A stretch of 47,467 nucleotides of DNA from Persephonella sp. (GTDB lineage: Bacteria; Aquificota; Aquificia; Aquificales; Hydrogenothermaceae), in contig QNZF01000042.1 of assembly GCA_003978485.1 (NCBI GenBank), positions 1 through 47,467 of the forward strand, read 5' to 3'. Under the pieces are notes generated by a model that made no database searches, had not been told where the DNA came from, and saw only the letters and a program-made list of their open reading frames with translations. Of the stretch, positions 10,599 through 26,326 are shown in pieces (position 1 is the stretch's first letter; each line of letters opens with the position of its first letter). The position numbers were made by a program, and so were the translations under genes.

Positions 10599-11750
10599 TT
10601 AAACCTCTGTTTTTTCAATTTGATGCTTCTTTATAAACTCTTCTGCCCTCTTTAAAGCCTTAGGATGACCTAAAAGTATAAGATGGTCACCTTCAGATAC
10701 CGTAGTATCTCCTGAAGGAGATATTTTCATTCTTCCATCATTTTTTACTATAGCGACAACAGTTGTCCCTGTCTGTTGAGGTAGTTTTATTTCTTTCAAT
10801 TTTTTATTCGCCAACTCGCTGTCCTTATCTATAGCTACTTCTATTAAATCAATGTCTGTCTTTTCTCCGTAAGCTATTCTCTCTAAAAATCTATCTAATA
10901 TAGGTGTAGGCTTATGAAAAATAAAGGATGCTATTCTTCTACCTACAGTAAAACTTGGAATTATTACCTCGTTAGCACCTAAAAGCTTCATCTTTTCTGC
11001 ACTTTCTTCATTTGTTGCAGTTGCCACAATATAGAAATTTTCCTTATCAGGTCTTATCAATCTTGCTGTAACAATAACTGCTATGTCTTGTGTATTTTCT
11101 TCAAAAGCTGTAACTAATCCTCTTGCATTTTCTAAACCAACCCCAAGCAAAACGTCCCGTTTGTAAGGTTCATCTATAACATAAAATTCCACTCCAAAGT
11201 CTCTAATTTCTTTTTCTTTATCAGGATTGGGCTCTATGAGGACAAACTTTACTTTTCTTTTTTTTAGCTGCTTCATTAACTCTTTAGTTATCTCATTAAA
11301 ATGACAAATTATATAATGCCCGTTTAACTTCTCCATTCTTTTATACATCCTCCAATACCTGTATATTTCCTCAATATTACCGTTCATAAAAACATTTACT
11401 ATACTGACAAGACCATACATATAAACTAACGGTAATGTAACGATTATAAATATAGAAGTGAAAAGTCTATTTATCTCTAAATGTTCCGTATCATAACCTT
11501 CAGTATATCCTACAGTTGAAAATGTAATAATTGTATGAAAGAAATAATTTAATACACTTTTACCATCAGACTTTTGATTTATTATCATTAACATTAATAT
11601 ACCTAAAGTAGTGAAAAATATAATCGTCATTAAAGGGTATCTTAGCTGTAATAAGACATCATAAAATTTTTCCTCGTATATAGCCCTATAATTTTTTGGT
11701 TTGATATTACCGTAAGGTTTTCCTTTTCTTCTACGATGATTTTTTTCCAA
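10599..11750 (-). CDS. Potassium channel with RCK/TrkA-N and TrkA-C domains
   Basis: Selectivity filter TIITFSTVGYTEGY, TrkA-N-like HYIICHFNEITKELMKQL, C-terminal EGDHLILLG. Confidence 0.9.
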   Translation of the reverse strand: MEKNHRRRKGKPYGNIKPKNYRAIYEEKFYDVLLQLRYPLMTIIFFTTLGILMLMIINQKSDGKSVLNYFFHTIITFSTVGYTEGYDTEHLEINRLFTSIFIIVTLPLVYMYGLVSIVNVFMNGNIEEIYRYWRMYKRMEKLNGHYIICHFNEITKELMKQLKKRKVKFVLIEPNPDKEKEIRDFGVEFYVIDEPYKRDVLLGVGLENARGLVTAFEENTQDIAVIVTARLIRPDKENFYIVATATNEESAEKMKLLGANEVIIPSFTVGRRIASFIFHKPTPILDRFLERIAYGEKTDIDLIEVAIDKDSELANKKLKEIKLPQQTGTTVVAIVKNDGRMKISPSGDTTVSEGDHLILLGHPKALKRAEEFIKKHQIEKTEV

Positions 11751-11760
11751 TGTATTCCAA

Positions 11761-12180
11761 AAAAGTTAAAAATTAGATTTTTAATTATATTAAGTGATTA
11801 AAAAATCTTAGGCAAGGAATATCTAAGACGGAGATTTTCTTAAATTCACATCAGTATTATTACTTTTATTTAATTATATTTTAACTAATATACATAACTA
11901 TAATAATAATAATAATAAGGTGTGAATTATGTGGATAACTCCGCAAAATATTGATATATAAGGCTTTGAAACAATTTTAAAATGTGAGTTTAATGTGGAT
12001 TTAAATGTGGAAAGTGTGAATTTAAAATTATTATCCACTTTGATGAAAAATCGTATAATCGGCTTAGCTACTGGCTTAGAGAAGATTTTCTCCATATTTT
12101 TAAATTGACAACCTGATTTTTAAAATGACATTAAAATGACATTAAAATGACATCTTATCCACAGGTTAAAATCAGGCTAG
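11761..12180. promoter_or_regulatory. DnaA-box cluster / candidate replication origin or DnaA-responsive regulatory region
   Basis: Perfect DnaA boxes TGTGGATAA at 11930-11938 and TTATCCACA at 12155-12163; TTATCCACT at 12031-12039; degenerate TGTGGATTT 11994-12002, TGTGGAAAG 12006-12014, TGTGAATTA 11921-11929; (TAA)6 at 11901-11918; AT-rich flank. Confidence 0.6.
12121..12153. repeat. Three perfect tandem copies of the 11-mer TAAAATGACAT
   Basis: Read directly: taaaatgacat x3, flanked by inverted repeat CCTGATTTT (12112-12120) / AAAATCAGG (12168-12176). Confidence 0.95.
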
Positions 12181-24856: not shown

Positions 24857-26326
24857 ATGGAAAACTTCTTTGACATACCTTTACCACACGATGAGTTAGC
24901 AGAGAGGGCTATTTTAGGAGCCCTTATGTTCCATCATGAAGTTGTAGAGTATGTTGTTAATTTTCTTAAGCCTGAGGATTTTTTTAATGAAGCCCATAGA
25001 GTTATATATGAAGCTATACTTGAAATAGTGGAAAGGGGTGAAACGCCCCACATTTTAACTGTCAAAAATCTTTTAGAGGAAAAGGGTAAGTTAGATACAG
25101 TCGGAGGACTAATATATCTATACAAACTTTTAGATGAAGCGGCTACTCCTAGTATTGTAGAGATAGTTGTAAAACAGATAAAAGACAAGGCAGTTGCTAG
25201 AGGTCTTATAGAAATATCTAAAAAAATAATAATAAAAGCTAAAAACTCTAAAGATGTTAATCAACTTATAGAAGAAGCAGAAGCTGAAATATTCCGTTTA
25301 AATGAAAACAGAACAATATCCCAGTATTACTCTATATCTGAAGTAATAGCTGAAACATTAAAAATAATAAATGATTTATCTAAGAAAGATACTATTATTA
25401 CAGGTATACCATCCGGTTATTACAATCTGGATAGATTAACAACTGGATTTCATGAAGGTGATTTAATCATCATAGCTGCTAGACCTGCAATGGGAAAAAC
25501 ATCCTTTGCCCTTTCAATAATACATAATACATCTGTTATAGAGAAATATCCTTCTGCCTTCTTTTCACTTGAGATGTCAAAAGAACAGATAGCTATGAGA
25601 TTACTATCTTTAGAAAGTAGAATTCCTTTAAAAAAAATAAGGTCTGGTTTTCTATCTGAAGAGGAGTTAAACAGGATAACTGAAGTCGCCGCTGAGATTT
25701 CCAACTCTCCAATTTATATAGATGATACAGCATCATTGTCTATTTTAGAGCTGAAGGCGAAGGCTAGAAGATTAAAAAGGGAAAAGGATATAAAACTTAT
25801 AATTATTGACTATTTACAGTTGATGAGGTCTAACCGTAGGGTTGAAAGTAGACAACAGGAAGTAGCTGAAATATCTAGAGGATTAAAGGCTTTAGCTAAG
25901 GAGCTTAATATTCCTGTAATAGCTTTAGCCCAACTATCTAGACAGGTAGAGATGAGGGCTGATAAAAAGCCCCAATTAGCAGATTTGAGAGAAAGTGGTA
26001 GCATTGAGCAGGATGCTGATTTAGTTATGTTTATACATAGACCTGAGTATTATAAGAAAAATCCTACACCTGAAGAGGAAGGAATTGCAGAGATTATCAT
26101 AGCTAAACAGAGAAATGGACCAACAGATATAGTAAAACTTGCATTTATAAAAGAGATAACAAAATTTGAGAACCTTGCAGAGGGTAAGGAAGAGGAGATT
26201 TTAAAAGAAGATGATATAATAGAGGAAAATAGTCCCATAAATGAAGTGGAAGAAAATACGGATAATATAGAAAGTGAGATTATATTTAATGATAATATGT
26301 TTGAAGATGATGAAATAGATATTTAG
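24857..26326 (+). CDS. dnaB: Replicative DNA helicase
   Basis: PHDELAERAILGALM, IIAARPAMGKTSFAL, IIDYLQLM, LRESGSIEQDADLVMFIHR. Confidence 0.97.
   Translation: MENFFDIPLPHDELAERAILGALMFHHEVVEYVVNFLKPEDFFNEAHRVIYEAILEIVERGETPHILTVKNLLEEKGKLDTVGGLIYLYKLLDEAATPSIVEIVVKQIKDKAVARGLIEISKKIIIKAKNSKDVNQLIEEAEAEIFRLNENRTISQYYSISEVIAETLKIINDLSKKDTIITGIPSGYYNLDRLTTGFHEGDLIIIAARPAMGKTSFALSIIHNTSVIEKYPSAFFSLEMSKEQIAMRLLSLESRIPLKKIRSGFLSEEELNRITEVAAEISNSPIYIDDTASLSILELKAKARRLKREKDIKLIIIDYLQLMRSNRRVESRQQEVAEISRGLKALAKELNIPVIALAQLSRQVEMRADKKPQLADLRESGSIEQDADLVMFIHRPEYYKKNPTPEEEGIAEIIIAKQRNGPTDIVKLAFIKEITKFENLAEGKEEEILKEDDIIEENSPINEVEENTDNIESEIIFNDNMFEDDEIDI

Follow-up and report, generated by a model that had tools for sequence, protein, structure and literature searches.

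A candidate DnaA-dependent replication-origin module, one of two homologous modules in a draft genome of the Hydrogenothermaceae

Bacteria are thought to use one origin of replication per chromosome. Here we ask what part is played by an intergenic locus with the look of such an origin, found in a 47,467-nucleotide stretch of DNA (hereafter the window, meaning that whole stretch at its full length) from a hot-vent bacterium of the Hydrogenothermaceae (Aquificota). This stretch corresponds to contig C2 of G000, a 1.16-Mb draft genome in 74 contigs that is 78.6% complete with an estimated contamination of 0.57%. Its sister genomes in the genus are G032 (JALSPY01, 97% complete) and G031 (QNZC01, Persephonella sp. 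MAG 16, 69% complete). The genome-wide work on G000 consisted of searches together with sampled stretches (241 kb for box score and stability), and gene names near the modules were judged from sequence. The initial annotation proposed a chromosomal origin or, alternatively, a site for DnaA titration or DnaA-dependent regulation. We conclude that the element is very probably a complete DnaA-dependent replication-origin module, one of two in G000. As regards the type of module, there is good support for oriC; what falls away is the definite article, since with two modules per genome "the" origin is not assignable to the window copy.

The module (Table 1) lies between divergent gene starts at 11750 (-) and 12232 (+), and the parts from which an origin had been proposed are indeed there: two perfect DnaA boxes TTATCCACA, a single-mismatch box (TTATCCACT), abutting degenerate boxes, and (TAA)6 beside both the first box pair and an AT-rich stretch. 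In the basal unwinding system, trios (5'-TAG/TAA-3') share a strand with the DnaA boxes and precede them on the 5' side, and spacer lengths peak around 10-13 nt (PMC8287927, PMC10316083). The polarity of the window layout, left unverified at first and now checked, is the same, 5'-DUE-trios-spacer-boxes-3', with at least three trios 5' of a box on the same strand and a spacer to the better box that falls within this range. Two bases separate the trio tract from the abutting pair, TGTGAATTA-TGTGGATAA at 11921-11938. The left-array boxes share the orientation of this pair, while the right array faces the opposite way. In the gap between the left anchor and the left array, a site at 11944..11956 (-) matches the IHF consensus, WATCARNNNNTTR, and is offered as a lead only; the pattern of this IHF-like site, TATCAAnnnnTTR, recurs at a similar place in the origins of other genera.

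Read along the minus strand, the right array is TGTGGATAAGA-TGTCATTTTAA-TGTCATTTTAA-TGTCATTTTAA; the 11-mers and the perfect box at 12155 together make up a single array with an 11-bp period. The right array of G031 shifts gradually from TGTGGATAA through an intermediate unit, TGTCGATAA, to TGTCATTTT. Because the 11-mers keep an exact 11-bp register with a DnaA box and grade into a box in G031, we read them as putative weak DnaA-type sites, and a separate iteron system is less likely for the same reasons. The tandem 11-mers that had been reported are thus present, but as part of the register of the terminal DnaA box and not as a separate element. The near-perfect box at 12031 was also considered as a core part and set aside, since it is conserved in no other copy.

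Table 1. Parts of the candidate origin module in the window and the basis on which each was placed.
Feature	Coordinates	Strand	Basis
Whole candidate origin module, window copy, DUE to terminal DnaA box	11839..12163	+	homologous to C5:20930-21240 and to the G031 and G032 modules
AT-rich DUE, overlapping the trios	11839..11918	+	least stable 80 bp nearby, nearest-neighbour energy
(TAA)6 DnaA-trio tract, 5' of the boxes, 11 nt upstream of the perfect box	11901..11918	+	sequence; polarity and spacer as in PMC8287927
Degenerate DnaA box, TGTGAATTA on +, abutting the next box	11921..11929	-	sequence; spacing to next box conserved
Perfect DnaA box, left anchor (R1-like)	11930..11938	-	sequence
Left array of four degenerate boxes, starts 11983, 11994, 12006, 12015	11983..12023	-	TGTG start spacing across copies
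Single-mismatch DnaA box TTATCCACT, window copy only	12031..12039	+	sequence; absent from other copies
Three TGTCATTTTAA units (tandem 11-mers), read as weak DnaA-type sites	12120..12152	-	11-bp register with box 12155
Perfect DnaA box, right anchor (R4-like, opposite orientation)	12155..12163	+	sequence

Perfect DnaA boxes as such are not enriched in the genome, with 31 in the 1.16-Mb assembly against 28 in the reversed control. Two perfect boxes less than 300 bp apart, however, occur in the G000 assembly only in the window module and at C5:20933-21188, where box density alone would give about 0.24 such pairs (arithmetic on the assembly count). When segments of 260 bp were ranked by weighted box score in 241 kb of G000, the window module ranked first and the C5 copy second. 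The unwinding element adjoining the boxes falls in the lowest 0.01% of stability over 241 kb of G000, and extreme instability is seen in both copies. GC skew was weak, irregular and uninformative for origin placement, both in three complete relatives (about a fifth of each genome sampled) and around the two copies.

Conservation in relatives was a further expectation of the origin proposal, and it is borne out. The trio-plus-box-pair pattern matches in 21 of 41 family genomes and never in the reversed control; beyond the family, only two more genomes in the class match. A search with the origin of G018, a genome of another genus, matched 25 genomes from other genera, always at a single homologous locus, and G000 alone at two (G031 and G032 fall below threshold with this distant query and were found with queries from their own genus). 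Boxes and spacing are kept in these relatives and in four gene contexts within the genus, although in other genera the arrays consist mostly of perfect TTATCCACA boxes. That the majority of array boxes in the window module are degenerate counts against the origin reading. The series of TGTG start spacings, 9, 53, 11, 12, 9, is the same in all copies with two small exceptions: the pair spacing (boxes at 11921 and 11930) is 9 in five of the six copy sequences and 10 in the remaining one, and the left array is spaced 11, 12, 9 in the G000 and G032 copies and 11, 12, 11 in G031. When the G000 copies are compared with each other, 9 of 117 positions differ in the predicted sites, against 50 of 172 in the remainder (Fisher p = 6e-6; the site set was taken from patterns resembling boxes in a single copy, a choice that favours matches that are conserved). 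On this comparison the predicted sites are under constraint, diverging far less than the spacers. In G005 (C25, L080, about 25011-25450), a portion of the box array of the origin occurs again in the intergenic region that holds it.

The second full module of G000 lies at C5:20930-21240, in reverse orientation upstream of purD, and is about 80% identical to the window copy. It is near accD and an ankyrin-type gene, which flank the module in G031 and G032. The first G032 module is on C135, between a gmhB-like gene and purN; the second spans a contig break, with one piece at the end of C278 and the other at the end of C112, and has an ankyrin-type gene and guaA as its neighbours. The two pieces appear to be one locus because their sequences overlap. 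G031 has one module, between guaA and the ankyrin-type gene. We also asked whether purN marks the second copy across genomes, but the purN of G000 is on C31, without a module. As the genes beside it vary from locus to locus, the module is not bound to any one of them. Within a genome the copies are 80% (G000) and 92% (G032) identical, and G000 and G032 copies are 63-69% identical to each other; the guaA copy of G032 is likewise 92% identical to its own paralogue as against 81% to its positional orthologue in G031. Because copies within a genome are more alike than those between genomes, there has been either homogenisation between copies or separate recent duplication.

At the location that corresponds to that of the window copy, the sister species G031 and G032 have the P-type ATPase gene following proC, without a module. 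The P-type ATPase on C2 is 87% identical to these orthologues, and the tetranucleotide profile of C2 and C5 is one shared with other contigs of the bin; on these two grounds both contigs are assigned to the genus. In G032, G019 and G016 the P-type ATPase gene is near an rRNA operon, as judged from rRNA-translation-like ORFs (L146 11461-15513, L160 599-3426, L161 299-3884). Elsewhere in the window are dnaB, the replicative helicase gene (24857-26326, Pfam DnaB_C), 13 kb away from the module, and, near the contig start, an ORF that by sequence judgement resembles a Cmr/RAMP-type (type III CRISPR) protein (1338-2612).

The initiator protein of the genus is itself unusual. Each of the three genomes has one DnaA above the family cut-off (G000:C21:4302-5600 = L031; L227; L228), and in all three the residue equivalent to E. 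coli D433 is His, whereas 26 of 26 other relatives compared have Asp; the helix-turn-helix motif reads K-H-H-T-T in the genus and K-D-H-T/S-T in those 26 family members. A dnaA-proximal origin was looked for on C21, which holds dnaA, and set aside, since no box cluster stood out there. Because the change at the D433 position coincides with degenerate boxes in exactly the same genus, coevolution of protein and boxes is suggested, as a single correlated change in a single lineage. An oriC-type module is ordinary for the family; its duplication and the D433H DnaA are not.

If the module works as its anatomy suggests, DnaA would bind the two high-affinity anchor boxes, 11930 and 12155, and weak sites would next be occupied from each anchor toward the middle, the two series running in opposite directions, by way of the degenerate boxes on the left and the 11-bp-phased units on the right. 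From the box pair at 11921-11938, DnaA would pass onto the (TAA)6 trios, the AT-rich DUE would melt, and DnaB would be loaded. What the sequences show is the anatomy of the module, its polarity and spacing, its conservation and duplication, and constraint on the predicted sites; binding of the weak units by DnaA, melting of the module, and firing of the window copy in the cell, together with the C5 copy or instead of it, are inferred.

Which of the two copies acts as an origin is a separate matter. The C5 copy may be the only active origin, the window copy being a duplicate that is decaying or that titrates DnaA or sets the timing of initiation, like E. coli datA and DARS or the B. subtilis DnaA-box clusters; we regard this as a serious possibility, if somewhat short of an even chance. 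If there is a single main origin, C5 is the likelier of the two, because its branch is shorter (0.08 as against 0.26 for the window copy), because its accD and ankyrin-type neighbours are those of the module in the sister species, and because those species have no module at the location of the window copy. A weak, non-significant sign change of the skew near the C5 copy points the same way. The window copy, however, retains every part of the module, including a DUE and trios that a titration site would not need, and its predicted sites appear constrained. Titration sites do resemble the situation in G000 in being a second chromosomal DnaA-box cluster. The titration sites named are not known for a DUE-trio unwinding part, and both G000 copies keep one, so that a box cluster without an unwinding part is not what is found here.

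Alternatively, both copies may be active origins on one chromosome, which we consider less likely than not. Two full modules in each of two species, the retention of all parts in both copies, and the greater likeness of copies within a genome than between lineages all argue for this. Against it, one review knew of no bacterial chromosome in nature on which two homologous origins both function, and in a draft of 74 contigs the copies may lie on separate replicons. The later natural exceptions are fused chromosomes, which have two unlike origins (PMC6284228). A plasmid or chromid origin was set aside, there being no match among 72,556 plasmid records; no rep gene was seen beside either copy, and both lie among housekeeping-type genes. 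The fuller account, that in this genus a single chromosome is naturally replicated from a pair of homologous DnaA-dependent origins, which have stayed alike as they moved around the genome, with the box-reading DnaA residue changed from D433 to His and the boxes relaxed into tandem weak sites, is one we put forward as conjecture, more doubtful than probable.

It is unlikely that the copies come from two strains or species binned together, each with one relocated origin. The assembly is a draft in 74 contigs, and origins do move in this genus, in which all four module locations differ; but contamination is low (0.57% and 2%), C2 and C5 have the tetranucleotide profile of other contigs in the bin, and the two-copy state recurs in the independent genome G032. 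The copies also lie inside large contigs and differ at ~20% of positions, so they are not a repeat misassembly. That the module serves as a DnaA-controlled promoter for the divergent KTN-type gene or for the P-type ATPase gene, between whose starts it lies, is scarcely credible, given that the same module stands beside unrelated genes elsewhere and that the orthologous P-type ATPase gene of the sister species lacks it.

The module is a candidate origin of familiar type in an unfamiliar number. A duplicated full module matters against the one-origin-per-chromosome view; with at least two of its species carrying a pair of homologous full modules, the genus would allow the question of origin number to be tested directly, even by metagenome read depth. 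The nearest parallel for the unwinding half is the oriC of B. subtilis with DnaA-boxes 6/7 and DnaA-trios (PMC8287927, PMC6669920), where the trios likewise lie 5' of an abutting pair, 11 nt from the better box; the window module differs in being far from dnaA, in having the weaker box next to the trios, and in being present twice. In the oriC of E. coli, R1 and R4 anchor the ends, arrays of weak sites 2 bp apart fill inward in opposite orientation, and IHF bends the DNA between R1 and R5M (PMC6727663). The window module similarly has opposed end anchors, inward weak sites about 2 bp apart and an IHF-like site after the left anchor, but its weak units are of the TGTCATTTTAA and TGTG(A/G)(A)TTT types, it has no R2-like box in the middle, and it has a true trio tract. 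Other origins of the Hydrogenothermaceae (such as those of G016, G018 and G037) have a DUE, TAA/TAG trios and a box pair homologous to those of the window, yet their arrays are mostly of perfect boxes and each genome has one locus. Putative double bacterial origins (PMC4403523) and fused Vibrio chromosomes (PMC6284228) share with G000 two origin-type regions per genome; those, however, are bipartite, acquired, dnaA/hemE pairs or two unlike types, whereas the genus described here carries two homologous full modules across species.
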